Positions 10,701 through 52,488 of a stretch of DNA of 64,000 nt are shown piece after piece. Both the position numbers and the translations under genes were made by a program. This DNA is from Candidatus Eiseniibacteriota bacterium (GTDB taxonomy: Bacteria; Orphanbacterota; Orphanbacteria; Orphanbacterales; Orphanbacteraceae): contig JAJRWB010000046.1 of the NCBI GenBank assembly GCA_024276995.1, forward strand, positions 1-64,000, given 5' to 3'. Numbering within the stretch: position 1 is the first letter of the stretch; each line of letters begins with the position of its first letter. Under the pieces are notes generated by a model, which was not told where the DNA came from, did not search any database, and was given only the letters and a program-made list of their open reading frames with translations.

Positions 10701-11780
10701 GTCGCTCATATCCTTTTCGATCTGCACCGCCCAGTCGTTCATCGCGTTCTGCGCGAAGGGCATCATATGCTGGGCGTACGCGGAGGTGACGATGTCGCCC
10801 CACCCCTCGGTCACGGCGGCGGCCATCGAATCGTTGAACTCGGGGTTATACCACTCGGCGGCGGTCTGAAGCTGCCCGGAAAGATGCATGTTGAGCGGGA
10901 GATTGTAGTAGCGGTGGGCGTCGAGAAGCTCGTCGAAACCGTCATCCGGGTTCGCCGGATCGCCGTCGGCGCCGGGCGTTTCGCCGCGCTCGCCGTAGAA
11001 GACCGATGTCCACGTGAGCCCTTGGTTGCCGTGCACCACGAACGCCACGTTGTGTGCCGTGGCGGAGACGCTGCTCGACGCGGAAAGATCGTCGATGAGC
11101 TTCCCCGCCTGCGCGGTGAAGACGTAGAACCGTACCGGTGTCGCGTCGGCGGCCGCCACGTCGGCGGCGATCGATGCGTATTTCGCGCCGCGCTTCGCCT
11201 TCGCCGCCGCCAGGGCAGCCTCCTTGAAGTCGCCGGGAAGCCAGACGCTCCCCTCGACCATCTGGTTCCGTGCGGAGACGTTCACCTTGCGGATCCGCTC
11301 CGTTTCGCCGGTATCCCCGCCGGCGTCGACGAGGAGCCCTGCCACACCGCCCTTCCCGTTGCCGGAGATCTTCAGGCATCGATCCCAGGCGATCGGCGAT
11401 TCACCCGCAATGCCGTCCGGAAGGGAACGTGTTCCCCCCGGCAGGTAATCGAAGGCGATGTAAAGCGATGTCCCTTCCGAAAGGAAGCGGTCGGAAGAGC
11501 CGTCGAAATTCGCCATCTCAAAGATCTGGGCACGAAAATCGAGGCGGTCGACATTCTGGTCGTAGTAGAACGCCATCAGGTCGGCGCCCTTCGCCCCGGG
11601 GAGCGCCGTGTCGTGTACACGATCGAGAGTTCTTGCATGAACGGATAGGTATTCGGCGGGATCGCCCGTCGCCGTGATCCCGGGCGCCGGTACGGCGGGA
11701 GGCGTCCAGGCGGCGCCGGCCGCGATCGGAATCGACAGGAGCGTGAGGAACAGAAACGCGGTGAGGCGCAGCGATTTCAT
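7767..11780 (-). CDS. Giant secreted GH57-family glycosidase with FlgD-like C-terminal domain
   Basis: The 1337-residue modular protein has a signal peptide (RLTAFLFLTLLSIPIAAGAA) and a GH57-like catalytic half. Visible motifs are LPLNMHLSGQLQTAAEWYNP (about 300), WVPERVWLES (about 377, putative nucleophile Glu) and VYGNDWEIP (about 477, putative acid Asp). Next come a Big_5-like Ig domain (about 893-993), a DOMON/CBM9-like beta-sandwich starting IDGYFDPVEW (about 1008-1200) and a FlgD-like Ig tail (NPFNPTTTIRF ... SGLYFVRVRS). It probably degrades alpha-glucan at the cell surface. The start at 11780 has GGGAG upstream. It has its own strong promoter and operator, shared in design with the gene starting at 37413. 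The exact linkage cut is unknown. Confidence 0.8.
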   Translation of the reverse strand: MKSLRLTAFLFLTLLSIPIAAGAAWTPPAVPAPGITATGDPAEYLSVHARTLDRVHDTALPGAKGADLMAFYYDQNVDRLDFRAQIFEMANFDGSSDRFLSEGTSLYIAFDYLPGGTRSLPDGIAGESPIAWDRCLKISGNGKGGVAGLLVDAGGDTGETERIRKVNVSARNQMVEGSVWLPGDFKEAALAAAKAKRGAKYASIAADVAAADATPVRFYVFTAQAGKLIDDLSASSSVSATAHNVAFVVHGNQGLTWTSVFYGERGETPGADGDPANPDDGFDELLDAHRYYNLPLNMHLSGQLQTAAEWYNPEFNDSMAAAVTEGWGDIVTSAYAQHMMPFAQNAMNDWAVQIEKDMSDWRYGDTAVVAWVPERVWLESPDNDGNGIAAGGGVVDNTLLDNWMNHGVDAVLLDNYIHLDYYNTVFDDRHVYVHSNGLKFIPMDGNFVGDMDNNWGNAWNTIIGLSSDEILVYGNDWEIPAEVSQGASNPSALNNWINILQQCSLNSGTVAVWKISDVIHNAPFLSSISNPTIQNGTYGLLGGKSGYGGSDNSWYIDWAAYSDPAHIWDFHTPTWDYGTIWNNTYNKIIASPSNSLSESAWYVMMSNLHETGWHDNGQISGWIYRYSNHIKNANVYAEASRWAAGLYANPTGAYLSDIDMDGVDEGVIYNDRVMAVIEPIGGKVNYLFAKGTTYGYSVIGNDNAYWPDTEGDYNETNHIAGLSDVSVAGLDREHDTYSISVVSGTGSTVSLDVVHPNVTKRINLTTGDKFLDVVYDAAGEDVYVKSGFTPDLVDVIWNAQMDRVWAANPVSGAYFGQRNPNTGATAAIVVGSGGAAHNTQYRSTILEVDELVASGQFEVYLFAGETSPPDVNGDIAELQALATALVDTLPPAPLSANYFPGPDRISIEFNEAVDYTSLAVTGISVDENDDGTADVTFGAGSSVITTTNGVRIDVQLDAATAIALEALNPAALELMMSAGSVLDLAGNGNPTVTNTDNVPITVAPVTLITIDGYFDPVEWVPATKIVTDLWDSQWTTAAPGDTNDINALYMTWDTTYLYLGIQGMVNGNSWLLYLDTDPGGALGQSVLDSLDTWERGAVLPFPADFQYGCYQHQGGFDSDSFWKITSDTTTQDLSGAILSAFDSQHFYYLSGGSELAIPWDVLYGLGAGAVPPGASISLVSSICWDPEPNGELGGDQAPDNIASTTPVLDNFVTITVDGNGDGLPDASNQPVGIDEGAEAAPPRLALLGNVPNPFNPTTTIRFIVPGSGGETSRTRVDVYDLAGRRVITLVDRPLPAGERAVVWNGTADDGLPVSSGLYFVRVRSAGEERTKKMTLIR

Positions 11781-11971: not shown

Positions 11972-14900
11972 CTACTCGGTGATCTCCAGGATCGCCGCGC
12001 CGTACGGCTCGAGGGCGACCGAAATCGACCCGCCGTCGCCGCTCGAAAAATCGTACGACCCGCCCGAGAGGAGCCCTTTCGCGGCAAGCGCATCGAAGGG
12101 CAGGGCGGAGCGGTCGAGCTGCACTTCCACCGCCCCCGCCCCGGCGTTGAGAATCACCGCGATGTGGTCGTTTCCCAGCGACCGGGTGTAGGCGTAGACC
12201 TTCTCTTCGGCAAGGAGGGTGTGGAAATCGCCGCGGCGAAGGGCGGCGTGCTCCTTCCGAATCGCCAGCACGGCGCGGTAGAGGTCGTGAACCTTCTTCC
12301 GGCCCGGATCGCCGAGTTCGTCCCAAGGGAAGGGCCGGCGACAGTCGGGATCTTTCCCTCCCTCCATGGCGATTTCGTCGCCGTAGTAGATCGTCGGCAC
12401 GCCGATGTAGGTGGCGGCGAATGTGGCGGCGAGTTCGAGACGGCGCGTATCGCGCCCGGCGCGCGTGAGAAACCGTTCGGTGTCGTGGGAGCCGATCAGG
12501 TTCATGCTCCCGAGCACGGCGGTGCGCGGGTAGCTGAACCGCCCCGCGGCGAGCTGGGCGTCGAAGGTCTTCGCGTCGGTCGATCCCTTTCCGATGAACG
12601 AGAGAACCGGCTCGAGGAAGTACTTGTAGTTCATCGTCGCGTCGAACCGGTTCCGGCCGAGATCGCCGGCGGCGTTCCCCCACAGTTCCGCCCAGACGAA
12701 GCCGCCGTCGACGCGCGATTCGCGCACCGCTTCTCGGAATAGCTTCCAGAACCAGGGGGGGACTTCGTTCGGCACGTCGAGACGATAGCCGTCGGCGTCG
12801 AGATCCTTCATCCAGTGGCGCGCCACTTCGAGAATGTGATCTACCAGCTCCCGGTTCGGCTTCGCATCGTCTATGTCGTCGATGGACGACTCCGTCTCGT
12901 CCGGTCTCGAGAGGTCGTAATTGAGGTCGGGAAGCGATCCGAACCCCCACCAGCAGGCGTAGTAGTCGCTCCAGTTCCCGTCGGGCGCCATCTGTTCGGG
13001 GAGCGGCCATTTGCGCCAGTCGTACCACGTCCAGTACGGCGATTTCTCCCCTTTCTCTTTCGTATCAAGAAACGCCCAGTGGTACATCCCGGTGTGGTTG
13101 AACACGCCGTCGATAACGATGCGCATCCCCCTGCGGTGCGCCTCGCCGGCGAGACGGCGAAACGCCTCGTCGCCGCCGAAATGGGGATCGACGCGCATGT
13201 AATTCACCGCGTCGTACTTGTGGTTCGACTGCGCCTGGTGGAGCGGGTTGAAATAGAGGATCGTGACACCCAGGTCTTGGAGGTAGTCGAGTTTCTCGAT
13301 CACGCCGTCGAGGTCGCCGCCGTAGAACGAGTAGTAGTCGGGCTTGCCGTCGGTCCGGTACGGACTCCTCGTCAAACCGGCGATGTCGTCCCAGTCGGTG
13401 ACGAGATGAAAATACTCGCCGTTCGTCTTCCCGCCCGGAGGAAGCTCGGTGAGACCGTTGTAGTAGCTCTCCGAAAAATCGGGATCGTTTTCGCGATCGC
13501 CGTTGCGAAAGCGCTCCGGGAAGATCTGGTAGAGCACGCCGTCCGCCACCCAGTCGGGAAGGGTGAAGAGGGGGATCGATTCGGGATCGATCGGCATTTC
13601 CCCATCGTCCGGGTCGACGAGACCTTCTTCGCCGAGGGCGAGAACGGTGGCGCCGTCATGGTAGAGTACACGGACGGTGCCTTCGCCCGGCGCCTCGAAT
13701 TCCCCTCTCTCATAGGTGAACTGTCCGTCTTCGCCGGCGGAGGCGAGGGTGATCGTCCGCGGCTTTCCTTCTTCGGGGGTGAAGGTCATCGTCACGCTGT
13801 CGACGTCGCCGCGGAACGCTTTCACCGTGGCGACGACCGTCGTTTCGGACGACCGGGTAAGAAGCAGCGTGCCGGAAAAAGAGAGACCGTCGCCGCGAAT
13901 CGCGCCGTCCCCCCGGGCGATCGCCACCGAGGGGAACGAATCGTCGACGTTGAGAACGCTGTTCTGTCCGCCGAAGCCATCGTCCACCGACCTGTTGTTT
14001 TCCGGATCGGCGAACCAGTTGCCGTCGGCGACGAACTTGTAGAGATACTCTCCCGGTGTCAGCGGGAGGCGGACGGCGAAGGCGCCTTCCTCGTCGGGAC
14101 CGTCCATCGGCTGGGCGGTCGTACTCCACTCGTTGAATGTTCCGGCGAGAAAAACCTCCTTCGCGCCCCCTTTCGGTCGGAAGCGGAACGTCACCTCCCG
14201 CAGGTCCGTCCCTGCACCCGCCGTCCCGTCTCCGACCGGAGCGCCGATGACGTATCGCTTCGCGGCGATCTCCCCTTTCGACGCATCGAGAAGCGACCCT
14301 GGATCACCGGTCACCTCGATCACCGAGTTCTCGCTCCCCTGGTCGTTCGCCACCTGCTCCGCCGCGAGGGGATCGGTGAACCAGGCGCCGTCGGCGACGA
14401 ACTTGTATTCATACCTCCCGGGGGAGAGAAGCACCTCTCCCTCGAACACGCCGTCGCCGTCGGCGTCGGAGAGGTAGTCGGCGCCCATGTTCCAGTCGTT
14501 CCATTCACCCGCCACGGTGACGAGCCTTGCGTTCGGCACGGGGGGGGTGAAGCGGAAGAGCACGGTCACTTCGTCGCCGGAAAGAGTCTTATTCGCGGCC
14601 GGTTTCTCCCGTTCGGCCGCATCCCCCTTCCCACTCGACGCCGACGCGCGGCCGGCGTCGATCTTGGCGGCACCATCGGGGACGACGAGAACGGAGTTCT
14701 TCCCGCCGTACGGGTCGGGAACCTGTTCCGCCGCGAAAGGATCCTCGTGCCACGACCCGTCGACGACGAACTTGTATTCATACCGTCCCGGTGCGATTTC
14801 GAGGGTCGTCTCGAAGAGACCGTCGCCGTCGGCGTCCGTCATGAGAGAGGCGTCGGCGTTCCAGTTGTTGAATTCACCCGCCACCGATACCTGCGCCGGG

Positions 14901-15007
14901 CTTTTCACGGCCGGCTCGTAGGAGAAACGAACCTGTGCGCCGCGAGCGGCGGAAGCGAGAAGAACGAGGAGAACGAGGTTGGAGAACGCACTCTTCCGGA
15001 AAGCCAT
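11972..15007 (-). CDS. Secreted GH13 alpha-amylase/neopullulanase with three N-terminal glycogen-binding modules
   Basis: The 1011-residue protein has a signal peptide (AFSNLVLLVLLASAARGA) and three tandem AMPK/CBM48-type modules (about 25-105, 145-230 and 260-345). Each carries GE/TFNxW and YEYKFVVDGxW-like signatures. After a linker domain comes a GH13 barrel: VLYQIFPERFRNGD, GVFNHTG (about 636), nucleophile Asp in GYRLDVPNE (about 742), acid/base Glu in WAELWG (about 771) and GSHDTER (about 840). IYYGDE and the neopullulanase-like start point to the cyclomaltodextrinase/neopullulanase branch. It likely cleaves starch, pullulan or glycogen outside the cytoplasm. The ATG at 15007 follows an AAGGGA site. 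It is divergent from the 15141 operon. Confidence 0.93.
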   Translation of the reverse strand: MAFRKSAFSNLVLLVLLASAARGAQVRFSYEPAVKSPAQVSVAGEFNNWNADASLMTDADGDGLFETTLEIAPGRYEYKFVVDGSWHEDPFAAEQVPDPYGGKNSVLVVPDGAAKIDAGRASASSGKGDAAEREKPAANKTLSGDEVTVLFRFTPPVPNARLVTVAGEWNDWNMGADYLSDADGDGVFEGEVLLSPGRYEYKFVADGAWFTDPLAAEQVANDQGSENSVIEVTGDPGSLLDASKGEIAAKRYVIGAPVGDGTAGAGTDLREVTFRFRPKGGAKEVFLAGTFNEWSTTAQPMDGPDEEGAFAVRLPLTPGEYLYKFVADGNWFADPENNRSVDDGFGGQNSVLNVDDSFPSVAIARGDGAIRGDGLSFSGTLLLTRSSETTVVATVKAFRGDVDSVTMTFTPEEGKPRTITLASAGEDGQFTYERGEFEAPGEGTVRVLYHDGATVLALGEEGLVDPDDGEMPIDPESIPLFTLPDWVADGVLYQIFPERFRNGDRENDPDFSESYYNGLTELPPGGKTNGEYFHLVTDWDDIAGLTRSPYRTDGKPDYYSFYGGDLDGVIEKLDYLQDLGVTILYFNPLHQAQSNHKYDAVNYMRVDPHFGGDEAFRRLAGEAHRRGMRIVIDGVFNHTGMYHWAFLDTKEKGEKSPYWTWYDWRKWPLPEQMAPDGNWSDYYACWWGFGSLPDLNYDLSRPDETESSIDDIDDAKPNRELVDHILEVARHWMKDLDADGYRLDVPNEVPPWFWKLFREAVRESRVDGGFVWAELWGNAAGDLGRNRFDATMNYKYFLEPVLSFIGKGSTDAKTFDAQLAAGRFSYPRTAVLGSMNLIGSHDTERFLTRAGRDTRRLELAATFAATYIGVPTIYYGDEIAMEGGKDPDCRRPFPWDELGDPGRKKVHDLYRAVLAIRKEHAALRRGDFHTLLAEEKVYAYTRSLGNDHIAVILNAGAGAVEVQLDRSALPFDALAAKGLLSGGSYDFSSGDGGSISVALEPYGAAILEITE

Positions 15008-15059
15008 GAAAAATCCCTTTCTTCCGGTGGAACAGACGGGGTATGATCTTCCGGCGACC

Positions 15060-15088
15060 ATGATAGACGTTTTCCGGTAGCCGAACAA
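15060..15088 (-). promoter_or_regulatory. Promoter of the GH13 amylase gene
   Basis: Minus strand TTGTTC (15083-15088), a 17-base spacer and TATCAT (15060-15065) lie 52 bases upstream of the amylase start. The TGTAAY dyad found at the other two starch promoters is not present here. Confidence 0.55.
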
Positions 15089-15140
15089 GGATCCGACATA
15101 CGAACCGCCCCGCGGCGGATAGGGTAATCCCTTCGAGCCC

Positions 15141-16463
15141 ATGCGTTTTGCGATCAAGAAAACTCTGCCCGGGGCGGCCGGTTTCTTCGCGCTGATCCTT
15201 GCCGCACAGCCGGTTTCCGCCGCCACCGGCGGCGATCTCACGAACCGGATCGTAATCGACGGAATCTCCTCAGACTTCGAACCGGACGAGTCGGTGTTCG
15301 GCATGACCCGCCGTGATGTGAACGGCGACGGAATCGTCGAGGATGTGCCCGAGGAGAGGGACAACGACTCGAAGTGGGGTTTCAACAACGACGTCAACCA
15401 GATCAAGATCACCTGGGACGCCGAGAACCTCTATGTCGCGGTGGACGGGATCTCATGGAACAATAATATCATCCTCCTGTTCGACTACGAACCGGGCGGC
15501 CTTCGAAAGATGACCGAGCTGAATGCCTGGCGGAGGAATTTCACCTTCTCCAACGGCTTTCAACCGAACCTGTTCCTGGCCACGTGGGACGGAAACACGA
15601 CGCCCCAGATCTGGCGTGCCGCCGGCGATTCGACGAACACCGTGAACCAGATCGATATCGACCTGTTCGAGACGGTGGCCACCTTCGCCCAGGGGGCGGA
15701 GGGGCGTTCGATGGAAGCGCGCATCCCGTGGCCGATCGTGTACGGCAAGGAGCTCGATCGGGTATACAACGAGGCGGCGGGAGAATCGACATACACGTTG
15801 CCCGTGGGGCACGGCGAGGGGAGACCGATCCGGATCTGCGCCGTGCTCACCGCCGGGGGAGACGGAACCGGCGGTCCCGATTCCGCGCCCGACAACTTCG
15901 GTGGGCACACGATCAATTCTTCCGACGTCGTGGGGATCGACAACTATGCCATCGTTCCGCTGGACGAGACGTACTATTTGACCGAAGAGGGAACGCAGCT
16001 CTACTCCGTCGATGACCTTCCCGCCGGGGAGACGATCGCCGATACTTTCGTTGCGGACGGCATGCCCGATCTGCACGGCGTGCATGTCAAAAGCCGGATC
16101 GGCTTCCTCGCCGATCCGCCGATCGTGGGGATCACCTTCGATTTCGCGGACATCCTTTTCGATCGTCCGATCGTCTCTCCCGAGGAAGGAGATCTTCTCG
16201 AATTCAAGCTGAAGCTCGATCCGGACGTCCACGAAGAGGGTCGAAACGTCTCCCTCTTCGCCGAAGTGTTCGACATGGGCGGAGTGCGGATCAAGAGTCT
16301 CTTCAATGTGACGGTCGGCACCGTCGACGTGGAGAGGCTGGTCGGAACATGGGACGGCCGGGACGAGGCGGGAGAGATCGTCCCCGGAGGAATCTATCTT
16401 CTTCGCGTGGTGGTCAGTCCCGGGCCGGGAAGCTTGACGAAGGCGTTCTCGGTGATCCGGTGA
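15141..16463 (+). CDS. Secreted beta-sandwich protein with FlgD-like C-terminal domain
   Basis: The 440-residue protein begins with a signal peptide (ending near AAQPVSA). A DOMON/CBM9-like sandwich follows (about 28-260: NRIVIDGISSDFEPDE ... NLYVAVDGISWNNNIILLFDYEPGG ... MEARIPWPIVYG). It ends in a FlgD-like Ig domain (about 330-440: VGTWDGRDEAGEIVPGGIYL). Similar sandwiches occur in the GH57 protein (7767) and the 35362 protein. No catalytic motif is visible, so a carbohydrate-binding role is likely but unproven. It heads a six-gene plus-strand run and is divergent from the amylase gene. The gap to the next gene is 7 bases. Confidence 0.7.
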   Translation: MRFAIKKTLPGAAGFFALILAAQPVSAATGGDLTNRIVIDGISSDFEPDESVFGMTRRDVNGDGIVEDVPEERDNDSKWGFNNDVNQIKITWDAENLYVAVDGISWNNNIILLFDYEPGGLRKMTELNAWRRNFTFSNGFQPNLFLATWDGNTTPQIWRAAGDSTNTVNQIDIDLFETVATFAQGAEGRSMEARIPWPIVYGKELDRVYNEAAGESTYTLPVGHGEGRPIRICAVLTAGGDGTGGPDSAPDNFGGHTINSSDVVGIDNYAIVPLDETYYLTEEGTQLYSVDDLPAGETIADTFVADGMPDLHGVHVKSRIGFLADPPIVGITFDFADILFDRPIVSPEEGDLLEFKLKLDPDVHEEGRNVSLFAEVFDMGGVRIKSLFNVTVGTVDVERLVGTWDGRDEAGEIVPGGIYLLRVVVSPGPGSLTKAFSVIR

Positions 16464-16470
16464 GGTTCGG

Positions 16471-17382
16471 ATGAGAAGTGTTTTCACGAGATTCTTTCCG
16501 GTCGCGCTTCTGCTCGCTTGCGCCGCCTTCCCCGCCGCGGCGTATTTCGAACGCCTCGAAGTCGGAGGTAGGGCTCTCGCGCTGGGTCATTCGTACCACG
16601 CCATCGCCGACGATCCCTCGGCGATCTACTGGAATCCGGCGGGGCTCGCGCAGGCGGTCCGGCCCGCCGTTCTCTTCGATTACTATAAGCCGTTCGTCGT
16701 TCAAGACCTCGCCAGCGGATTCGCCGCGGTCAGCTATCCGGGCGCCGGCGGCCAATGGGGGGCGGCATGGCACTACTTCGGGCTCTCCGGCGTGGAGCGG
16801 GAAAACGTCTTCTCCCTCGCCTACGCCGCAAGGACGATCCTTCCACGCTTCGGCACGCTCGCCGTCGGGGTGACGGGAAAGGTGATGAGCGTCTCCTACA
16901 GCTCCATCGAAGATCGTCCCTTCCTCGACACTTCACCCACGAACGTCGCATCCGACTACGGCGGTCAGACGGAGGCGACCGCCGATGTCGGCTTTCTCTA
17001 CAACCCGATCGAAAAGGTGGCCCTGGGAGTGATCGTCAGGAACGTCGTGGAGCCGCGGTTCGATTTCGTCAGCGGTGGCGGGGGGACGACGATCGCCCGC
17101 GAGGTGGAAGGCGCCCTGGCGTACCGGTGGGACGAAGCATCTCTCCTCACCGCCGGGCTGGCGAAAACGAGCGAGGGATACACGGCGATTTCGATCGGCG
17201 GCGAGGTGGTCTTCTATGACGTGTTCGCCTTGAGGAGCGGCGTGTTCGACGCGGAGTTCTGGGGAGGTTTCGGCCTGATCAGCCGCCGGTGGAGTCTCGA
17301 CAGCGCGTTCGTTACCGATAGGAATCTCGGCATCTCCTACATGGCGTCGATGACGATCTTTCTCGGCGGAGGGGATGAATGA
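16471..17382 (+). CDS. PorV/PorQ-like outer membrane beta-barrel protein (UPF0164/FadL-like)
   Basis: This 303-residue protein has a signal peptide (RFFPVALLLACAAFPAAA). It opens with the PorV-type signature GGRALALGHSYHAIADDPSAIYWNPAGLA, followed by amphipathic strands typical of a 14-strand FadL-like barrel. In type IX secretion, PorV carries C-terminally tagged cargo to the cell surface. Here it sits directly after a gene whose product ends in a FlgD-like domain. Its stop overlaps the ATG of the next gene (ATGA). A shuttle for surface proteins or a general barrel are both possible. Confidence 0.78.
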   Translation: MRSVFTRFFPVALLLACAAFPAAAYFERLEVGGRALALGHSYHAIADDPSAIYWNPAGLAQAVRPAVLFDYYKPFVVQDLASGFAAVSYPGAGGQWGAAWHYFGLSGVERENVFSLAYAARTILPRFGTLAVGVTGKVMSVSYSSIEDRPFLDTSPTNVASDYGGQTEATADVGFLYNPIEKVALGVIVRNVVEPRFDFVSGGGGTTIAREVEGALAYRWDEASLLTAGLAKTSEGYTAISIGGEVVFYDVFALRSGVFDAEFWGGFGLISRRWSLDSAFVTDRNLGISYMASMTIFLGGGDE

Positions 17383-18902
17383 AGCGCCGGATTCTTGCAT
17401 CGATGACGCTCTTCTTCTTCGCGGCGAGCCCCGCGTTTCCGATTACGAAAGTGGAAGGGGAGTACCAGCTGCAGCTCGACATCCGCCGGCAGGATCGTTT
17501 CTACCCTTGGGATTTCGAATCGAACAACGACGACACCTGGGCGGCGAGCTAGTTTCGAATCTTCACCACGCCGCGAAACGGCGTGGAGGGGTTCGTTCGC
17601 TTCGAGGCGGACTGGAACACGGGATCGAACAACAACGAGCGTCCGGTCTACCAGTACAGGGAGGGGCATGTCCGGTTCTGGAAGGATTTCGACGGCGCCC
17701 AGGCGGAGGCGTGGCTCTTTTCACGCCAGGACCGGTACTGGGTGGAGAGCAACCTTCTCGAGCTGGTGCGCTCTGGCAATCTCACCGACGGGGGCAATTC
17801 CCAGGGGGCGAGGTTCAACCTGAATCACTGGCGGGGTCTCGACGTGAACTACATTGTGAGCGATTTTTCCGGCCAGTCCCGTGTCGGCGGCGGCGTCACC
17901 CCCCCCGCGTCGGACGATGCCCAGGTTTTCCGGCTTCGCCGATCTTTCATGGAAAACCGGATCCGCACCGGCATGACGTATACGAGGAAGATCGAGGCGC
18001 AGGAGGGGGAGACCGGTTTCAACGAAGTGTACGGCTACGACTTCCGTTTCTCCTTTTTCAACAGCGACCTGTTCGTCGAGTACGCCGACAGCAAGATCGC
18101 CGGCCCGGATGCGAAGCCGCAGAGTTCATGGAGTTTCGATCTTTCCCATATCACCGATTCCGAATTCAACAAGATGCTTCCAGACGATGCGGCCTTCAAG
18201 GCGGAATTCCGTTCGATTCGGTTCGGGAATCCGACGTTCGGGTTCTATAACATCGCCCCCCTCTATTATTACTACGGGAAGGACTACGGCGCGTGGCTGG
18301 GGGACGGCACCAACGACCTGGTCGGGTACAAGATCAACACGTGGTACCTCATTCCCGGCCGGGCGGTCACGCTCACCATCGACTGGGAAGAGAACCGAAA
18401 GAGCACTTTCGAGGATAAGAAGTGGACCCGTTTTCGCACGGAGATCTATACCGAGTACGTCAACGGATTCACGAGCAAGATCTGGTATGATCGACGCAAG
18501 ACGATCGACTACGCCAACCCCCTGTTCGACGAGGTAACGAAAAACTACGATCTTTTCGGCGAGGTGCAGGTGGAAAGCCGTCTCGCCTGGATGCGCGTGG
18601 AAGGGAAGATCAAGGATCTCGATACGCCGAGACGGAAGGTGCTCACTTCTCTCGAGTCGACGGTGAATCTCTCGCCCCGAGTGAAAATCTACAGCCGCTA
18701 CGCATTCGGAAACGATCCGGTCGGCCTGAGGAAGGGGATCTTTTCGGAGCTCCAGTACAGGCCGAGGGACCAGGTGGAAATCTTTCTCTCCTACGGCCCG
18801 TGGTGGATCGGCGACGACAGCGTTCCGGTCAACGACGGTGATCTCGAGGGAAGCGCGAACAACAAGGATATTATTCGACTTATCGTGAAAGGGAATTTCT
18901 AG
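17379..18902 (+). pseudogene. Outer membrane beta-barrel protein interrupted by an in-frame amber codon
   Basis: Translation from ATG 17379, which overlaps the preceding stop, gives a signal peptide (RRILASMTLFFFAASPAFP) and the start of a mature protein. TAG then occurs at 17550-17552 (codon 58, ...WAAS*FRIFTTPRNG). The same frame continues without another stop for 449 codons to 18902 and ends in the barrel-type terminus IVKGNF. The downstream part is rich in amphipathic strands. A single base change at what was probably a Tyr, Gln, Trp, Glu or Ser codon would explain it. TAG is a normal stop in neighbouring genes (1163, 18902, 40008), so genome-wide recoding is unlikely. A nonsense mutation, an assembly error or local readthrough remain. 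A GTG restart at 17583 would lack a signal peptide. Confidence 0.75.
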
Positions 18903-18914
18903 GAGCCGCCCCAT

Positions 18915-21092
18915 ATGAAACGAACAGCCGTACCGCCGCTCGTGCATCTCGTGTTGATGTTGATGGCCGTCGCCGGCCCGGTCGCCGCCGGAGTCGAGGT
19001 TTTGCCCGAGGGGGTCCGTTTCTCCTACACCGATCCCGTCGCCGGGCAGGTCACGGTTGCCGGCGAGTTCAACGCTTGGAGCACTACGGCCACGCCGATG
19101 GTCCTCGAGGACGGGGTCTGGACGGTGACGGTGAAACTCGACCCCGGGAAACACGAGTACAAGTATGTCGTCGATGGGCAGTGGACCGCCGACCCCGAGA
19201 ATCCCTATACCACGGGTGCGTACGGCAACTCGGTGGTGGAGATCTCCGCGAGCGGCACGGAGGTGAAACAGGAGGCGACATCGAACACCGCCCTTTCGCC
19301 GAAGATTCTGCTCGGAGGGCGCTTCATCGGGTTGTACATCTCCCGCGAGAACGCGGGGCGCGGAAGACAGTACGAGCTGATTCGTCCCGTCATGGATATC
19401 GATCTCGACTGGAAGGTCCGGGTGAACGAAGTGACGAACCTTCACATGCTTACCAAGATCAACAACGAGAACGAGAAGACGGTCACCGATTTCTGGCGCA
19501 CCAACCTTCGCTTCGATCGCGGATCGATCCGCCTCCACACCGACAGGATCGAGGGGAAACTCTTCGACAACGAGTCGGTCGGCCGGTGGGACGATCCCTG
19601 GAACCTCGTCGGCTCGGTCGGCATCTTCGACCACGATTTCGGCTACCGCGAGCAGGGAGCGATCGGCACGACGGGGTGGGGGAAGGCGAAGCTCACCCTC
19701 CTGTACTCGGACGACTTCGAGAACGGGGGGACCACGAACCCCGGCCTCGATACGCTCACCGCGGCCGAGGAGGGGACTTTTCTCGACAGCACCTCGATGA
19801 CATACGGTTTCACGTCGGCGCGAACGGTCACCTACGTGGCGCAGAACACCGACAACGACAAGGATGTTTTCGCCCTTCGCGGGAAGGTTCCCTTCGGGGG
19901 CGTGACACTCGGCTCTTCCTTCCGCCTCGACAGAGGCTACAATCCCGGATCGCTCTCGCTGATCGACATCGATCCCGCCGACCCGGAAGGGACCGCCGGC
20001 GTGCAGCGGAACTGGACGAACACGGTGGAGGAGTGGTGGGGGGGGGGAGGCGACCTGCTCGCCGGAGGGGAAGACCGGCCGTACACCTTCCAGGCGGAGT
20101 TTCTCTACGGCCGGGCGGACGTGGTCGCTCGGGACGGATCGGAACGGGACGTGCGTCTCACCGCGAGCGCGACCTACGACGAAGCTCTCGGCGACACGCT
20201 GCTCGATCCGGTGATCGTGGTGGAATCGAGTTCCGACCGGCCGGCGGATCTCGGAAAGTTCCGTCTCGACCGATCGTATCGCTACTACCTGGGCGGGTCG
20301 TACCGTTTCGAGGATTCCGATTTCGAAGTGGGTGCCGGCTGGGCGCGGGAAACTCATGACCAGAGCCGCTTCGCAACCGGTGTTTCGGAGGACCTCGAGA
20401 ACAGCTACAATCGATTCGATTTTACTATCAAGCAGGTGATCCCGGACGCCCGCGATCTCACCGTTGCGTTCGAGGCGAAAGTCTTCGACTTCTACTATGA
20501 CGAACGGACCCCGTGGGAGAATCAGTTCTGGTTCGACAAACGAAACTTCTGGCTCGACCAGGGGGAGCACGAGGTCGAATACGACAGGATGACCCTCGTC
20601 GGAGGACGGGATGCTTCCATCTTGAAGCCCTCGCTCTCGTTCGAGCTGTCGAAGAAGCGCCGCATCGACTTCACCTATCTCGGCACCATCGCCGGCGAAC
20701 CGGGAAAGGAACCGAAATACGTGGAGAGCCTTTTCCAGGTTCTCGGGAGACCGTGGAGACAGATCCGCCTTTATTCCGATACGAGACTGGTCAAGTACAA
20801 CGACCCCGTTCTCGATCTTTTCGGTTCCTACTGGTGCACGTTCGCCGAAGTGGCCTATGAAATGGGAAAGGGGATGGAGATCGCCTTCTCGTACGGCGTC
20901 GATCCGTATGTGATCGACGATGCCGTCAACAAGTATGATTATATCGGCAGGGATCTTTTTCTCTTTGCCGGGGGCGCCGACGGCGAGGCGGCGCGGCGGG
21001 CGTTCACGGGGCTGAGCGAAACCATTCCCGACGCGGAACAGGCGCTCGAAGACGAGCGGCGGTTCCAGATCGAGGGGATCGTACGGTTCTAG
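18915..21092 (+). CDS. Outer membrane beta-barrel with N-terminal glycogen-binding (CBM48-type) module
   Basis: The 725-residue protein has a signal peptide (LVLMLMAVAGPVAAG). One AMPK/CBM48-type module follows at about 27-112 (VTVAGEFNAWSTTATPM ... HEYKYVVDGQWTADPENP). From about 125 to the end there are roughly 600 residues of alternating amphipathic strands, closing with RFQIEGIVRF, whose final Phe is typical of outer membrane barrels. I know of no standard family with this layout. It may bind alpha-glucan at the surface or periplasmic mouth and let oligosaccharides through. It follows the amber-interrupted barrel gene by 12 bases and precedes two lipoproteins with the same type of module. 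Confidence 0.72.
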   Translation: MKRTAVPPLVHLVLMLMAVAGPVAAGVEVLPEGVRFSYTDPVAGQVTVAGEFNAWSTTATPMVLEDGVWTVTVKLDPGKHEYKYVVDGQWTADPENPYTTGAYGNSVVEISASGTEVKQEATSNTALSPKILLGGRFIGLYISRENAGRGRQYELIRPVMDIDLDWKVRVNEVTNLHMLTKINNENEKTVTDFWRTNLRFDRGSIRLHTDRIEGKLFDNESVGRWDDPWNLVGSVGIFDHDFGYREQGAIGTTGWGKAKLTLLYSDDFENGGTTNPGLDTLTAAEEGTFLDSTSMTYGFTSARTVTYVAQNTDNDKDVFALRGKVPFGGVTLGSSFRLDRGYNPGSLSLIDIDPADPEGTAGVQRNWTNTVEEWWGGGGDLLAGGEDRPYTFQAEFLYGRADVVARDGSERDVRLTASATYDEALGDTLLDPVIVVESSSDRPADLGKFRLDRSYRYYLGGSYRFEDSDFEVGAGWARETHDQSRFATGVSEDLENSYNRFDFTIKQVIPDARDLTVAFEAKVFDFYYDERTPWENQFWFDKRNFWLDQGEHEVEYDRMTLVGGRDASILKPSLSFELSKKRRIDFTYLGTIAGEPGKEPKYVESLFQVLGRPWRQIRLYSDTRLVKYNDPVLDLFGSYWCTFAEVAYEMGKGMEIAFSYGVDPYVIDDAVNKYDYIGRDLFLFAGGADGEAARRAFTGLSETIPDAEQALEDERRFQIEGIVRF

Positions 21093-21106
21093 GAGGTGGG
21101 CAGCGA

Positions 21107-21517
21107 ATGACAAGGCGAAGCAGGCCGGTCATCCTCGTGTCGCTGATCCTGGCGGTCGCGCTCCTTTCCGACTGCGCGGGACTCGACCTGATCAAGAGGC
21201 GGCTCAGGCCGCCTTACCGTGTGAGCGACGGGTTCCTCTTCCAGTTCGAGGCGCCCTCGGCCCACCGGGTGCAGCTGGCGGGCAACTGGGAGTGGAACGA
21301 CTGGCTGAGGGGGCAGGCGCAGACGGGGAGCTACCTGATCGGCTTGATGGAGGATGAGGACGGCGACGGCATCTGGTCCCGCGTGGAGGATCTCCCCCCC
21401 GGCCGTTACCAGTACAAGTTCGTAATCGACGAGCGCACATGGAAGGAAGATCCGAACAACCCGCTCAGGGTGGATGACGGGTACGGCGGATACAACTCGT
21501 TGTTAATCGTGGAATAG
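21107..21517 (+). CDS. Small lipoprotein made of a single glycogen-binding (CBM48-type) module
   Basis: The 136-residue product has a hydrophobic export signal ending in LLSDC (Cys about residue 23), a plausible though imperfect lipobox. A single AMPK/CBM48-type module follows (about 43-135: RVQLAGNWEWNDWLRG ... YQYKFVIDERTWKEDP ... YGGYNSLL). There is no catalytic domain. It probably displays an alpha-glucan-binding module on a membrane surface. An AGGAGGTGG ribosome binding site spans 21091-21099. It lies between the barrel fusion and the triple-module lipoprotein. Confidence 0.75.
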   Translation: MTRRSRPVILVSLILAVALLSDCAGLDLIKRRLRPPYRVSDGFLFQFEAPSAHRVQLAGNWEWNDWLRGQAQTGSYLIGLMEDEDGDGIWSRVEDLPPGRYQYKFVIDERTWKEDPNNPLRVDDGYGGYNSLLIVE

Positions 21518-21527
21518 GAGTCTCGAT

Positions 21528-23804
21528 TTGATTCACAAAGCCGGATACGTCATGGCCGCGGCGGCGGCGATCAGCGCGCTGGTCGCCCTGCTCGCGTTGA
21601 GCTGCGGAAACAACGCGCCCGACCCTTTCCTCGAGCCGCCCCGCACGGCGGTGGCGCAGGGAACGATCTCGGGAAACCTCGACTGGGGCATCGACGCCCC
21701 CTGGCCTCCCACGGTGGTCTACGCCATACGGAAGTACGAATCGTCATGCACGGGAGGTCCGTCCACCATACACATCACCGGGACATATAACGGCTGGAAC
21801 GAGACGGCGTGGACCGAGGAGCCGGGGATGACCGAGGTGCTCCCCTGCTACTGGGTCGAAAAGCTCTCCCTCGAGGGGGACGACGCCTTCCGCTGGAAGT
21901 TCGTTACCGATGCTTCCTGGGACGGCAGCTACGCGACGTGCGGCGATTGCGCCACCGACGGGGATGCGATGACCGGCGAGGTTCGGAACAGCAACGAGAA
22001 CGACATCGCCGTGCCGATTCCGGAGGACGGCGATTACTGGTTTCTGCTGAACGCATCCTCCGACCCGGCGCCTTTCCAGATCGTCCGGGAGGAAGGGCTT
22101 CCGTGGGACACCGCCGGCATCGACAGCTCCGCTTTCCGGATCGGCAATTTGGAAGAGGGCGTTTACACCCTGGTCGTCCGGGCGCTCGAGCGGCAGGAGG
22201 AGTTTCCCATTCGCGTGGTGAAGGGAATCCGCGTGTCGGGCGATGAGGGGACCGATCTCGGCACGGTGGAGGTGGTGCCCACCGGCTTCATCGCCGGTAC
22301 GGTCCACTTCGGCGACGCGCCCGATCCCCGGCCCACCTTCACGGTGGAAATCCTCTTCTCCGAGTCGGGCGCCCTTGCGGACAGCGTCTCCTTCGGTCCG
22401 ACGGACACGACGTTTTCCATCACCGGATTGAACGAGGATGTCTATGACGTGGTGATCGGCTCCAAGGGGTATGTCGATACGACGATCGTCGACGTGGCCT
22501 TCGTGCCCGGCGACGAGATCGATCTGGGCGCATTCACCCTCGTGCGCGCCGGCGCGGCGGGCGGTTTCGTCGTGTTCGGAGACGATCCCGATTCCCCCCC
22601 CGCCGTGACCATCGACGGGATGCGCGCCGGCGATCTGGAGGTGATCGCGTCGACGCAGGCCGCTTCCGACGGATCGTTCCTCCTCGAAGGACTCCCACCC
22701 GGCGCGGTCGACATCCGCTTCAGCGCGAGAAAGTACGTCGACACGACGCTCGCGGACGTGGCGATCACCGCCGGCGCGACCACCTCCGTCGATACGATCG
22801 TCTTGACGCCCGGCTGCGTCAGCGTGGCGAACACGATCCACATTCTCGGCGAATTCAACGGCTGGGACGAGAATCTCTGGGTCACCGATCCGGGGATGAG
22901 GCAGACGGAGAGCTGCTTCTGGCGCGACACGGTGGAGATCTTCCCCGTCTTCGCACTCACTTCGCAGTTCAAGTTCGTCGTCGACGGTGCGTGGGGAGGC
23001 GACTATGCCTTGTGTCCGGATATCGAAAACCAGGTGATCGACACCCTCGCCGGCTCGGTTTGTCTCGGCGGCGACGGGAATCTCACCCTCCTGGGGAACG
23101 GCCGCAGCGGTCGATTCGAGCTGACCCTCGACGAGGACTCCCTCTTTTTCCGCGCATCGTTGATCGACGAGTTCACCGCGCAGGTTTCCGGAACGGTGGC
23201 GTTCGATACCGGACTCGAGCCTCCTTTCCCCGCGATCCGGCTCGAAGCGCGACGCACCGGCGAAACGCTCCTTTTCGCGACGGCCGACGTAGATGAGGAC
23301 GACGGCTCGTTCGCCGTGGAAGGACTCGACGGCGGCACGTACGATCTCCTCTTCACGGGGACCACGTTCCGCGATACCATGCTCTCCGTCACCCTCGCCG
23401 ATGGACAGGACGTTTCGCTCGGCACGGTGACCCTCACCGAAGTCCAGTGCCAGTCGGAATTCACCGTGATCCGCGTGGTGGGCGATTTCAACGGCTGGAA
23501 TGCGTCCGCGCCGAGCATGACCGAGATCGAACCGTGCGTCTGGGTCGACACCGTGGCGGTGCCCGCCTCGAATCTCTGTTCGTTCATGAAGTTCCGCACC
23601 GCCGAGGACTGGGGAGACAACGATTACTTCAACTGCGGAGCACAGGACAATACGTGCAGCACGCCCCTTTCGGGAGACGTCTGCCACGGTTCGTTCCCGG
23701 GCGATCCGCCCGCCCTCGGTAAGATCGAGTTCCCCCAGGCGGGTAACTACGAGTTCCGGCTCGACGAGGCGAATCTGACGTACAAGATCACTCTCGTGGA
23801 ATAG
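21528..23804 (+). CDS. Large lipoprotein with three Cys-rich glycogen-binding-type modules
   Basis: The 758-residue protein starts at TTG 21528, with AGGAG seven bases upstream. Its lipobox is LLALSC. Three E-set modules of AMPK/CBM48 type appear at about 78-135 (IHITGTYNGWNE), 435-500 (IHILGEFNGWDE) and 644-710 (IRVVGDFNGWNA). Each is flanked by paired cysteines, suggesting disulfides. Between them are carboxypeptidase-regulatory-like beta repeats (ISGNLDWG..., AGTVHFGD..., AGGFVVFGDDP..., VSGTVAFDTG...). No enzyme motif is visible. It is probably an extended surface-exposed glucan-binding lipoprotein, functionally comparable to SusE/SusF though not recognisably related. It is the last gene of the six-gene run. 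Confidence 0.75.
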   Translation: MIHKAGYVMAAAAAISALVALLALSCGNNAPDPFLEPPRTAVAQGTISGNLDWGIDAPWPPTVVYAIRKYESSCTGGPSTIHITGTYNGWNETAWTEEPGMTEVLPCYWVEKLSLEGDDAFRWKFVTDASWDGSYATCGDCATDGDAMTGEVRNSNENDIAVPIPEDGDYWFLLNASSDPAPFQIVREEGLPWDTAGIDSSAFRIGNLEEGVYTLVVRALERQEEFPIRVVKGIRVSGDEGTDLGTVEVVPTGFIAGTVHFGDAPDPRPTFTVEILFSESGALADSVSFGPTDTTFSITGLNEDVYDVVIGSKGYVDTTIVDVAFVPGDEIDLGAFTLVRAGAAGGFVVFGDDPDSPPAVTIDGMRAGDLEVIASTQAASDGSFLLEGLPPGAVDIRFSARKYVDTTLADVAITAGATTSVDTIVLTPGCVSVANTIHILGEFNGWDENLWVTDPGMRQTESCFWRDTVEIFPVFALTSQFKFVVDGAWGGDYALCPDIENQVIDTLAGSVCLGGDGNLTLLGNGRSGRFELTLDEDSLFFRASLIDEFTAQVSGTVAFDTGLEPPFPAIRLEARRTGETLLFATADVDEDDGSFAVEGLDGGTYDLLFTGTTFRDTMLSVTLADGQDVSLGTVTLTEVQCQSEFTVIRVVGDFNGWNASAPSMTEIEPCVWVDTVAVPASNLCSFMKFRTAEDWGDNDYFNCGAQDNTCSTPLSGDVCHGSFPGDPPALGKIEFPQAGNYEFRLDEANLTYKITLVE

Positions 23805-24695: not shown

Positions 24696-25208
24696 ATGTT
24701 CGCGTTTCGCCCCGGCGTATTCCTGATTGCATTGGTCCCCGCCGTTCTGTGGCCGGGCTGTTCGCGGAAAGCCGACCAGCCGGTGGCGTTCAACCACAAG
24801 CTGCACATCTATAACGGTGTCGCGTGCACCGTGTGCCACGTGGGCGCCGAAACCGGCCTCAGGGCCGGCCTGCCCGGTGTGGAAACGTGCAGGAGATGCC
24901 ACGAAGATCTTCTCTACGAATCGGACGAGGAGGCCAAGATCCGCCTCGCCGTCGAATTGGATCGCGATCTCGACTGGATTCCTCTCACGAGACTCGCTCC
25001 GTTCGTTCTCTTCTCTCACAATCGTCATGTGACGCTCGGCAAGTTCAACTGCGTGACGTGTCACGGCGATGTGGCCTCGTGGTCGGTGCCTCCGCGCGTT
25101 CCGGAGAGGAACTTCCACGGCAGGCCGGGCATGGCCGACTGTATCGGTTGTCATCAGGAGAGCCACAGCCGCTACGCGGGCAGCGACTGTCTTTTTTGTC
25201 ATCATTAA
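24696..25208 (+). CDS. Pentaheme cytochrome c lipoprotein (ActA/QrcA-like)
   Basis: The 170-residue protein has an export signal ending in the lipobox WPGC and five CXXCH heme sites: CTVCH, CRRCH, CVTCH, CIGCH and CLFCH. Extra histidines in FNHKLH and FSHNRH are likely distal ligands, as in class III/c7-type cytochromes. Pentaheme ActA of alternative complex III and multiheme QrcA of the Qrc complex occupy the same position, just upstream of the molybdopterin-type subunit. It probably exchanges electrons between that complex and periplasmic cytochromes. Confidence 0.88.
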   Translation: MFAFRPGVFLIALVPAVLWPGCSRKADQPVAFNHKLHIYNGVACTVCHVGAETGLRAGLPGVETCRRCHEDLLYESDEEAKIRLAVELDRDLDWIPLTRLAPFVLFSHNRHVTLGKFNCVTCHGDVASWSVPPRVPERNFHGRPGMADCIGCHQESHSRYAGSDCLFCHH

Positions 25209-25218
25209 GGGGGATCGG

Positions 25219-27567
25219 ATGACCCTGACGCGCCGGAAGTTTCTAGCCTGCCTCTCCGCGGCGGGGATGGGAACTCTCGCGACCGGCTGGATCGGCGGCC
25301 GGCTCCAGGCGATGGTGGACGAGAAGATCTTCCCTATGCCTTCCGGTGTCGGGTTGGAGAGGTGGCTCGGCACATCGTGCGGTCTTTGCGCGGCGGGCTG
25401 CGGGCAGAGAATCCGCTTCGTCGACGGCCTGCCCGTGGGCATTGCCGGAAACCCCCTCGATCCGGCGAGCGGGGGCGGGCTGTGTCCCGCCGGCTTCTCC
25501 GGCCTGTGGGACGCGCTCTCGGAAGACCGGATCCGCTCTCCCCTGGCGCGCCGCGGCGAGAGGGGGAGCGGCCGGTGGGAGGCGATCGGCTGGGACCGGG
25601 CGCTCGACACGCTCTCGGCGAGACTCGCCGCCTTGCGGGCCTCGCGGACTCCGGAACGGTTCGTCGTTCTCGAGGGGGGGAGCGATCCGATTCGAAGCCG
25701 TTGGATCGAACATCTTCTCGCTTCCTTCGGTTCCCCCAACCACTGCATGACGGAAAACCCGATGGGACTGTGGGACGCTGCGGTCGGTCGAGTTCTCGGA
25801 ACGGGCGGTCTCTCCCTCGCTCCCGATCTCGACCGCGCGGGCGCGATCCTTTCTTTTGGATATGAACTTTTCGAAACGGACGCCAACCCGGTCTGGCAGA
25901 GCGCCGTGTGGGGAAGATTGAGGGATCCCGAAAAGGAGAGCGCCCCGCCGTTCGTCTATGCCGGTCCGCGCCTTTCCCCGACGGGATACAAGGCGGATCT
26001 CTTCCTGGCGTGTCGTCCCGGCACCGAAGGGGCGGTCGCCCTCGGCCTGGCATACGCGCTTTTCCAGGAAAGCCTCGTGGACGACGGGAATCTCGGGTCG
26101 TTTACCTCCGAAGATATTTCGGGCCTTCGTCTCTGGTTGAGAAAGAAGTTTCATCCCGAGGCGGTGGAACGGATCACCGGTGTTGCGCCGAAACTCCTCT
26201 TCCGTGTTGCACGGTCGATGAGCCGGAACCGGGGAATCGCCCTCGTCGGCTCATCTCCCCTCGCCGGGCCGAACGGTTACGGAACCGCTCTCGCCGTGGC
26301 GACACTCAACGTGCTTCTCGGCGCCTTCGGGCGGGAGGGAGGGTGGGTCGCCCCGCCCCGCCTTCCGGTGGAAATGCCGTCCCGTCCGCTACCAGACGAG
26401 ATCGCCCGCGCGGGCCTCGACAGGGGAAGACTCGACCGCGCCGGGAGCGGCGGCATCGACGTGAAGCAAGCACCCGGCCGCTTCTGGGAGCAACTCGCGT
26501 CGGGAGGTCCCTACGCGGTCGATACGATGCTGATCACCGGAACGAATCTTCTCCGGGAGCTTCCCGATCCGGGGCGGATCGCGAAAGTCCTGAGCAGCAT
26601 TCCCTTCGTGGCGGTCACGGCGAGCCGGATGAACGAAACGGCGGAGCAGGCCGACCTCATCCTGCCGGAGGCGACGTACCTCGAATCGTGGGGGTTGGTG
26701 ATCTCCCGCAGCGCCCTTCCCTTCTCCCGGGTCGGCCTTCGCCAGCCCGCCTTCGGGCCGCTATACGACTCGATGCAATTCGAGGATATCTGGTTCGAAC
26801 TCGCCCGGCGATCGGGTGCTTTCGAGCCGGGCGACATCCCGCGGAACATGGAATCGTGGGTGCGTGCCGCCGCCGCCGACCTCGCGGGAGCGGAACGGGG
26901 AATCGTGCCGAACAGCGTCGGCGACGGCGATCTGGCGGCGTACCTCGAGGCGGGCGGTTGGAAGGCGACCGATCCCGCGGAATCGTCCGGATCTTTCTGG
27001 AAACGGCTTCGCCGTTCCGCGGTTTGGACCGCCATGCCGGCGGGGCGTCCTTCTCCTGGAGAGCTGTTCCGCGCCGGGCGCGCCTCCCTGACCGGCGGCG
27101 ACGGGAAGAAGGAGATGGAAAAACTTGCGGGAGAAGAGGTCGCCGAGAAGGGAGAGAACGGCGACGAGGTCGCCCTCCTCTTGACCGACGCGACCACCCT
27201 GTGGGGGGGAAGAACTTCTGGGACTCCGCTCATGCTCGAGATGGCGGCATTCCACCAGAGCAAAGGGTGGGAGACGGTGTGCGAGATCAACCCGGCCACC
27301 GCGGAATCTCTTGGTGTCGCCGACGGGGACGGCGGCGTTCTCTCGAATCGGAAGGGAACGATTCACGTGCGAATCGTAACCACTCAGAAAGTGCCCCCCG
27401 GCGTTGCCGCGGTGCTCAGGGGGCTCTCCGGGACGTGGCCGAAGGGACTCGCCGCGGGCCGCAGGGGAAACCCGCTGGAACTGTTCGGGTCCCGCGAGAA
27501 CATGATGACGGGAAGCTGGATTCTCACGGCGCGCGCCCGCTTGACGCGCGATGACGGAACCGCATAG
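25219..27567 (+). CDS. Tat-exported molybdopterin-oxidoreductase-family subunit (QrcB/ActB-like)
   Basis: The 782-residue protein starts at ATG 25219 with a Tat signal (TRRKFLACLSAAG). An N-terminal Cx2Cx3Cx27C motif (CGLCAAGCG ... GLCPAG) should hold one [4Fe-4S] cluster. The body matches the bis-MGD oxidoreductase fold, including GFEVTA-equivalent strands (FVAVTASRMNETAEQADLILPEATYLE) and a C-terminal dinucleotide-binding domain. I cannot identify a convincing Ser/Cys/Sec molybdenum ligand. In Qrc and Act complexes this subunit is structural and lacks molybdenum, so a cofactor-free role is possible. It lies between the pentaheme and ferredoxin genes, with short gaps. Confidence 0.87.
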   Translation: MTLTRRKFLACLSAAGMGTLATGWIGGRLQAMVDEKIFPMPSGVGLERWLGTSCGLCAAGCGQRIRFVDGLPVGIAGNPLDPASGGGLCPAGFSGLWDALSEDRIRSPLARRGERGSGRWEAIGWDRALDTLSARLAALRASRTPERFVVLEGGSDPIRSRWIEHLLASFGSPNHCMTENPMGLWDAAVGRVLGTGGLSLAPDLDRAGAILSFGYELFETDANPVWQSAVWGRLRDPEKESAPPFVYAGPRLSPTGYKADLFLACRPGTEGAVALGLAYALFQESLVDDGNLGSFTSEDISGLRLWLRKKFHPEAVERITGVAPKLLFRVARSMSRNRGIALVGSSPLAGPNGYGTALAVATLNVLLGAFGREGGWVAPPRLPVEMPSRPLPDEIARAGLDRGRLDRAGSGGIDVKQAPGRFWEQLASGGPYAVDTMLITGTNLLRELPDPGRIAKVLSSIPFVAVTASRMNETAEQADLILPEATYLESWGLVISRSALPFSRVGLRQPAFGPLYDSMQFEDIWFELARRSGAFEPGDIPRNMESWVRAAAADLAGAERGIVPNSVGDGDLAAYLEAGGWKATDPAESSGSFWKRLRRSAVWTAMPAGRPSPGELFRAGRASLTGGDGKKEMEKLAGEEVAEKGENGDEVALLLTDATTLWGGRTSGTPLMLEMAAFHQSKGWETVCEINPATAESLGVADGDGGVLSNRKGTIHVRIVTTQKVPPGVAAVLRGLSGTWPKGLAAGRRGNPLELFGSRENMMTGSWILTARARLTRDDGTA

Positions 27568-27575
27568 GAGCGCCC

Positions 27576-28268
27576 ATGCCGATCTGGGGAATGGTGATCG
27601 ACCTCGACAGGTGCACCGGATGTGGCGGCTGCATGGCCGCCTGCAAGGTGGAGAACAACGTGCAGGTGGTGCCCCCCGGAGAGGCTCTCAAGGGCCGCGG
27701 CATGCACTGGCTCACCATCCTCTCGCGCACCGAGGGGGAGTACCCCGACGTGGAGGCGGTGCTCCAACCCGACCTTTGCATGATGTGCGACGACGCCCCC
27801 TGCACGAAAGTCTGTCCGGTCCACGCCACGTACAGGGGGGCGTACGGCCTCGTGGCGCAGATCTATCCGCGCTGCATCGGATGCCGGTACTGCATGGCCG
27901 CCTGCCCCTACACGGTGAAGTTCTTCAACTGGACGGCGGGAGAGGAAGGCGTGAATCTCTCCTCATCGCTCAACCCGGACGTGTCGGTCCGCCCGAAGGG
28001 CGTGGTTGAGAAGTGTACATTCTGCTACCACAGGCTGCAGAAGGCGAAGGAGAGAGTCCGCGCCGAACAAAGGGAGATCGCCGGCGGGGACTACGTTCCC
28101 GCGTGCGTGGAAATGTGCCCCGCGAAGGCGATGACTTTCGGAGACTTGGACGACGGCGAATCCCCCGTGAGCCGACTTGCTGCGAGCCGGCGCGCCTCGC
28201 AGCTGCTCGAGCACCTGGGCACCGAACCGAAGGTCTACTACCTGAGCAAGCGGGATCGAAATGTTTAA
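27576..28268 (+). CDS. Four-cluster [4Fe-4S] ferredoxin subunit (NrfC/QrcC/ActB2-like)
   Basis: The 230-residue protein has sixteen cysteines in four groups: CTGCGGCMAAC, CMMCDDAPCTKVC, CIGCRYCMAAC, and CTFC with CVEMC. This is the classic DmsB/PsrB/NrfC pattern that wires a catalytic or structural subunit to the membrane quinone site. There is no signal peptide; it probably travels with the Tat-exported partner encoded just upstream. The stop overlaps the NrfD start by 8 bases. Confidence 0.92.
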   Translation: MPIWGMVIDLDRCTGCGGCMAACKVENNVQVVPPGEALKGRGMHWLTILSRTEGEYPDVEAVLQPDLCMMCDDAPCTKVCPVHATYRGAYGLVAQIYPRCIGCRYCMAACPYTVKFFNWTAGEEGVNLSSSLNPDVSVRPKGVVEKCTFCYHRLQKAKERVRAEQREIAGGDYVPACVEMCPAKAMTFGDLDDGESPVSRLAASRRASQLLEHLGTEPKVYYLSKRDRNV

Positions 28269-29601: not shown

Positions 29602-29890
29602 CCGGCACTCCGACGCCTATCTCAAGCTGATCTTCCTTGCGCAGATCGCGTCGATCACCATGATGTGGATGTTTCTCGTCAGCGTCGTCCTGTGGATCCT
29701 GCACCTCGTGAACGTGGCGAGAGAGCTTCACGACGCGCTTACGGCATCGATCGGGCTCAGCCTGATCGTCCTGCCGGCCTACTCCCTGGTGGCGGCCATA
29801 CTGACGTTCGTCTTCTTCGGCCTGCGAAGAGGGGCGCGCAGCGAGAACGACGAGCCGGGCGAGAGCGAGGGGGAGCGCCATGATTCGTAA
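29588..29890 (+). CDS. Small membrane protein of the respiratory cluster
   Basis: The 100-residue protein has two hydrophobic helices (about 13-38 and 50-78) and a charged C-terminal tail. It overlaps the NrfD gene by 14 bases and the next cytochrome gene by 11, so it is almost certainly part of the same transcript. I do not recognise the family. Its position suggests a small anchoring or assembly subunit, comparable in place but not clearly in sequence to ActD. Confidence 0.65.
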   Translation: MSATDRHSDAYLKLIFLAQIASITMMWMFLVSVVLWILHLVNVARELHDALTASIGLSLIVLPAYSLVAAILTFVFFGLRRGARSENDEPGESEGERHDS

Positions 29891-37413: not shown

Positions 37414-37472
37414 CTTGGATCCTCCTGGAAACGGTTCGAGTCTTGTCGGACCTGAGTTGTCACGATGGAGCC

Positions 37473-37486
37473 TGTAACACGTTACA
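37473..37486. promoter_or_regulatory. Operator-like dyad TGTAACACGTTACA
   Basis: The arms TGTAAC and GTTACA are perfect complements around AC. The site overlaps the last base of the -10 box of the 37413 promoter and lies 134 bases upstream of the divergent ABC ATPase gene, so it could control both. The sister site is at 11838-11851. The outer bases match LacI/CcpA-type operators. Confidence 0.7.
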
Positions 37487-37515
37487 TTATACCACAATCG
37501 GGCCCTCCATTTCAA
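37486..37515 (-). promoter_or_regulatory. Strong sigma70-type promoter of the starch-binding protein gene
   Basis: On the minus strand TTGAAA (37510-37515), an 18-base spacer and a perfect TATAAT (37486-37491) preceded by TGG (extended -10). The layout is nearly identical to the promoter at 11852-11880. Confidence 0.8.
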
Positions 37516-37619
37516 TGCCGCCGCCGGGCGCCGTTTTTGCCGGGATTTTGCCGGGTCGAGGGGGTAGAATCCATTTCGAACGTCGTTTCCGACCGTTTTC
37601 AGCAGCAGAGGAGCCCCCC

Positions 37620-38717
<1,098 letters not shown>

Positions 38718-38751
38718 TCCGAGTTTTCATTCTTCCGGGAGGTACTCCGTC

Positions 38752-40008: not shown

Positions 40009-40009
40009 G

Positions 40010-42580: not shown

Positions 42581-42664
42581 GCGATTTTCTCTCCGTTTCT
42601 GCAGGTTTCCGACATACATGATTCGGAGCGTCCGGGGGGACGCGGATTGCACGATACAGCACTT

Positions 42665-52484: not shown

Positions 52485-52488
52485 ACCG

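Follow-up and report, generated by a model that had tools for sequence, protein, structure and literature searches.

A conserved locus for the probable capture and uptake of alpha-glucan independently of SusC and SusD in little-studied bacterial phyla

To our knowledge, the transport of large sugars across the outer membrane of bacteria beyond the Bacteroidetes and Proteobacteria is mostly unknown. The closest described systems are the Bacteroidetes Sus/SusCD utilisome (PMC7618045), which appears to have in common with the locus discussed here an outer-membrane barrel, glycan-binding lipoproteins, a periplasmic GH13 enzyme and alpha-glucan as its target, and the maltoporin (LamB) route for maltodextrin, which likewise ends in a MalEFGK importer. 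The locus lies in a stretch of 64,000 nucleotides (the window, which is the whole of the DNA analysed), and from its sequence and its counterparts elsewhere we consider it probable that it encodes a module that captures alpha-glucan and takes it up across the outer membrane without SusC or SusD, in conjunction with a Mal-type importer.

Six open reading frames, A to F, all on the + strand, fill positions 15141-23804 with intergenic gaps of 7-14 bases and a B/C overlap of ATGA. They are separated by a divergent intergenic region of 133 bases (15008-15140) from the gene for a GH13 alpha-glucan hydrolase (11972-15007, -), which has a signal peptide and three AMPK1_CBM modules and resembles maltodextrin glucosidase/cyclomaltodextrinase; the ORF listing of the window agrees exactly with the coordinates in the preliminary description, which had six same-strand genes diverging from the GH13 gene. 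A large secreted protein encoded at 7767-11780 (-) shows a weak GH57 match, a type IX/FlgD C-terminal tail and a domain in common with A.

Glycogen-binding modules had been read into D, E, F and the GH13 protein, and for all but F the reading stands, as their Pfam matches exceed the AMPK1_CBM gathering cut-off of 26.8 bits. D (18915-21092, +) has a signal peptide followed by a CBM48/AMPK-type module at residues ~26-107 (AMPK1_CBM 9e-16, 58.3 bits; CBM_48 1.7e-10) that is nearest to AMPK-beta in a PDB profile search (E 5e-14); the single module of the lipoprotein E (21107-21517, +) is just above the cut-off (1.7e-6, 28.5 bits), and the GH13 protein has three AMPK1_CBM stretches (5.6e-41, 139 bits). 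The glycogen contact residues of AMPK-beta are W100, K126, W133 and N150 (PMC4032982), and this W/K/W/N quartet is present in D, in E and in all three GH13 modules; of 15 D homologs, 13 retain it. In contrast, F (21528-23804, +), a lipoprotein with three weak CBM48-like modules and CarboxypepD_reg domains between them, scores below the cut-offs (AMPK1_CBM 0.0014, 19.2 bits; CBM_48 0.0076), which weakens the uptake reading, and its modules do not have the full quartet. Comparison of the F modules with SusE/F and CBM20 gave no significant match. Their number varies among relatives, with three in the window genome, G003, G005 and G006 and fewer in G001, G002 and G004. E has a signal peptide and is recognisable by the family signature C..L..IKxRLPPP. 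Its lipobox cysteine does not vary among the seven genomes of the phylum and recurs in distant E homologs, but in the window copy the residue at -1 is an atypical D. The residues after the lipid cysteine are K/R-rich in E and acidic or amide-rich in F, a contrast that hints at different membrane faces for the two lipoproteins but proves nothing. Separately, an 842-residue ORF in another phylum (L087:5862-8387), located between E/F-like and GH13 genes, has three AMPK1_CBM modules in a row at the C-terminus.

C (17379-18902, +) and the greater part of D are predicted outer-membrane beta-barrels. Neither barrel matched a family in Pfam or the curated profiles, and a PDB sequence search with both proteins matched nothing but the CBM module of D. 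Both have signal-peptide-like starts and a phenylalanine at the C-terminus, as outer-membrane barrels commonly do. The two are homologous over approximately the first 220-265 columns (hhalign 96.5%, E 7.6e-10), and on this alignment they are best described as paralogs, D with a module added, a relationship that the preliminary description overlooked along with the spread of the locus over several phyla. AlphaFold models of C and D, built from 6-7 sequences, are of low confidence (pLDDT 52-54), and the low TM-scores of their Foldseek matches allow a statement about fold class at most; with this limit, structure prediction would place them among outer-membrane barrels, which are the top matches of both models alongside AMPK-beta for the D module. 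About 22 strands are predicted in the low-confidence model of C, and the best PDB matches of the D model include chitoporin, AlgE and maltoporin. An amphipathic-strand statistic is positive for C (z 2.9) and uninformative for D, as it is even for the barrel B. That FepA, BtuB and FhuA appear among the weak Foldseek barrel matches could mean that the two proteins are conventional receptors of the TonB-dependent or SusC-like type that have diverged beyond Pfam detection, but we regard this as very improbable: there is no profile match to a plug or TonB domain in either protein, C has no N-terminal domain, the segment ahead of the D barrel is the CBM48 module, and when profiles of the two are compared with six TonB receptors from this genome, the probability is 0.2% for both. 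On this comparison the barrels are unrelated to those receptors, in line with the earlier statement that no SusC is recognisable.

As a barrel assembled by BAM normally has both its termini in the periplasm, the N-terminal module of D should be there as well; we consider it probably to lie on that side of the barrel. The locus had been termed a surface one, a placement that is putative throughout and doubtful for D, as its module precedes the barrel.

The amber interruption reported for C is real in the assembled sequence, where a single in-frame TAG occupies 17550-17552 (codon 58). The four ortholog frames that cover this position are uninterrupted and read Q, a fifth being a fragment at a contig edge. 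The frame 3' of the TAG is intact, with 57-70% identity to relatives, which suggests that the interruption arose recently, is polymorphic or stems from misassembly. The interrupted copy is the only C in the genome, and to that extent the uptake reading is weakened. General recoding of TAG is unlikely, as C, D, E and F themselves terminate in TAG, but there is one in-frame TAG (GMG*MTTLLDDG) in another barrel gene of this genome too, a member of the PorV family at G000:C73:8887-9399 (L131:888-1400).

The first two genes point to type IX secretion. A (15141-16463, +) is predicted to be a secreted sandwich protein with a FlgD-like C-terminal tail; beyond this weak FlgD/Fn-like tail it found nothing in PDB or Pfam. 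B (16471-17382, +) is PorV/PorP/TraF-like by Pfam and curated profiles. The earlier assignments, A as FlgD-tailed and B as PorV-like, are favoured by the direction of these matches, but the scores are below the cut-offs for both proteins (FlgD_ig 0.015 for A; PorV_fam 1.5e-12, 47.8 bits against a cut-off of 90, for B). B also matches PorP_SprF (7e-4). A distant protein in the A position has FlgD_ig above the cut-off (1.4e-7), and the A-position proteins of other phyla are long, contain Glucodextran_C domains and have tails of the FlgD_ig or CHU_C type. The genome encodes the type IX translocon SprA in one frame (516 bits) and has 15 PorV-family places. Secreted proteins with type B CTDs are anchored at the surface by binding to PorP-like barrels (PMC9143113), and by analogy we infer that A is a substrate of type IX secretion and B its probable PorP/PorV-like barrel partner. 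The FlgD-type tail of A, the likeness of B to PorV/PorP and this known mode of anchorage would also suit an adhesion or attachment complex, in which A and B are a type IX adhesin pair, C to F dock glucan particles and the sugars enter through general porins. We think this unlikely, as it does not account for two conserved barrels besides B, one of them with a module joined to what is probably its periplasmic side, nor for the direct linkage of the operon to an importer. A further type-IX-like substrate, with a FlgD tail over the Pfam cut-off, is encoded at 35362-37515 (-) beside MalK.

The gene order is widely conserved. D is present in all seven genomes of the phylum that were examined, the order A-B-C-D-E-F is intact in four of these (G002, G003, G004 and G006) and is also seen in the examined parts of G001 and G005, and the divergent GH13 gene lies beside A in G003, G004 and G006. 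Outside the phylum, the D barrel profile has matches in ten genomes and the C profile in more, C being found in two of five genomes of the phylum of G072 and in seven of eight of that of G140. Since other positive families belong to none of these three phyla, the locus occurs in at least four, and its hosts are little-studied, mostly uncultured bacteria. The order A-B-C-D-E was found in at least three other phyla, and B-C-D-E is kept in most loci outside the phylum. The expected co-occurrence in relatives is therefore seen both within the phylum and beyond it, and the recurrence of the same gene order across genera and phyla argues against a chance assembly.

The MalEFGK-type importer noted earlier is nearby in the window and directly adjacent in other phyla. 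In six loci (L093, L095, L133, L134, L135 and L136), B-C-D-E is followed on the same strand by MalF, MalG and a solute-binding protein, with a GH57 enzyme after the importer genes in L095, L133, L135 and L136; L092 reads E-GH57-SBP-MalF-MalG-MalK, and in L139 MalF-MalG continue on the strand of E as far as the contig reaches. As several loci are cut off at contig edges, the importer-linked fraction is a lower bound. A glycogen-binding module of the same type is found in the GH57 proteins of both L092 and L095, together with CBM20 or Glucodextran_C. In two loci of the window's own family (L035 and L036), MalK and a solute-binding protein follow F on the same strand. The importer of the window itself, at 37443-41721, comprises a MalK-type ATPase (37443-38717, +), a sugar solute-binding protein whose true start is inside its open frame (38350-40008, +), a MalF-type permease (40010-40894, +) and a MalG-type permease domain (41158-41721, +). 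About 14 kb containing unrelated respiratory genes separates it from the operon, a distance that weakens the uptake reading. Among the intervening genes is a co-directional cluster at 24696-33001 that encodes a molybdopterin oxidoreductase, NrfD and multi-cytochrome proteins. The gene for a CarboxypepD_reg protein lies ahead of it at 24014, and the cluster recalls alternative complex III or Qrc-type modules. Adjoining the importer, a frame at 41855-42652 (-) weakly matches X25/glycogen-binding modules towards its C-terminus.

The repeated linkage to the importer is the strongest evidence for uptake over export. It bears on the idea that the locus exports alpha-glucan or assembles a surface coat, with C and D releasing or anchoring glucan made by the cell and the modules retaining the coat. 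The genes for a GH57 branching enzyme and a GH57 4-alpha-glucanotransferase at 49825-54081, likely for intracellular alpha-glucan metabolism, keep synthesis and export in consideration, and a polysaccharide flippase-like gene at 6036 and the alginate exporter among the Foldseek matches of D would fit it as well. However, the core neighbours in other phyla are amylases and an uptake-type ABC importer with its solute-binding protein, and the core shows no glucan synthase gene, so that we judge export unlikely.

Taking uptake as the preferred reading, a surface amylase (the protein at 7767, or GH57/GH13 enzymes in relatives) would cut alpha-glucan outside the cell, where A, once secreted, would be held on the surface by B and, together with the lipoproteins E and F, would hold the polymer or its fragments. 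Maltodextrins would then pass the outer membrane by way of C and D, the two paralogous barrels, the probably periplasmic CBM48 module of D would catch the incoming chain, the GH13 enzyme would trim it in the periplasm, and MalEFGK would import the trimmed sugar. It is tempting to go further and suppose that C and D represent a new, non-TonB class of outer-membrane alpha-glucan transporter, in which the periplasmic module draws in or plugs the chain and which is ancient or has been widely transferred among at least four phyla; this we offer tentatively, as a possibility on the weaker side of even. With its conserved gene order in several phyla that are poorly cultured, its named parts and its likely substrate, the module opens the transport question to testing, and families C, D and E can be used to annotate alpha-glucan use in metagenomes.

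We found no description of such a locus in the published open-licence papers that the search covered. Compared with the Sus system, SusD is absent from the genome by profile search with two families (PF07980 and PF14322) and neither C nor D matches a SusC-type TonB-dependent barrel with a plug, as anticipated in the preliminary description; the locus further differs in its unrelated barrels, the fusion of a module to one of them, its ABC importer and its putative type-IX-tailed partner. It would work like a Sus system, yet it is not a member of that family. Compared with the LamB route, neither C nor D matches the LamB family, and the locus has extra binding lipoproteins and a CBM48-barrel fusion. 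A and B resemble the SprB-SprF/PorP pairs with type B CTDs (PMC9143113) in setting a tailed secreted protein beside a PorV/PorP-like barrel, but the likeness covers A and B alone, and here the tail of A scores below the Pfam cut-off. The modules of D, E and the GH13 protein match the AMPK-beta glycogen-binding domain/CBM48 with its contacts retained, but here they form part of a predicted outer-membrane barrel protein, a lipoprotein and an amylase. The suggestion of an independent design holds for the new barrel families; as to function, which we infer, it goes no further. C, D and E are new families, and the job that they appear to do is of a known kind.
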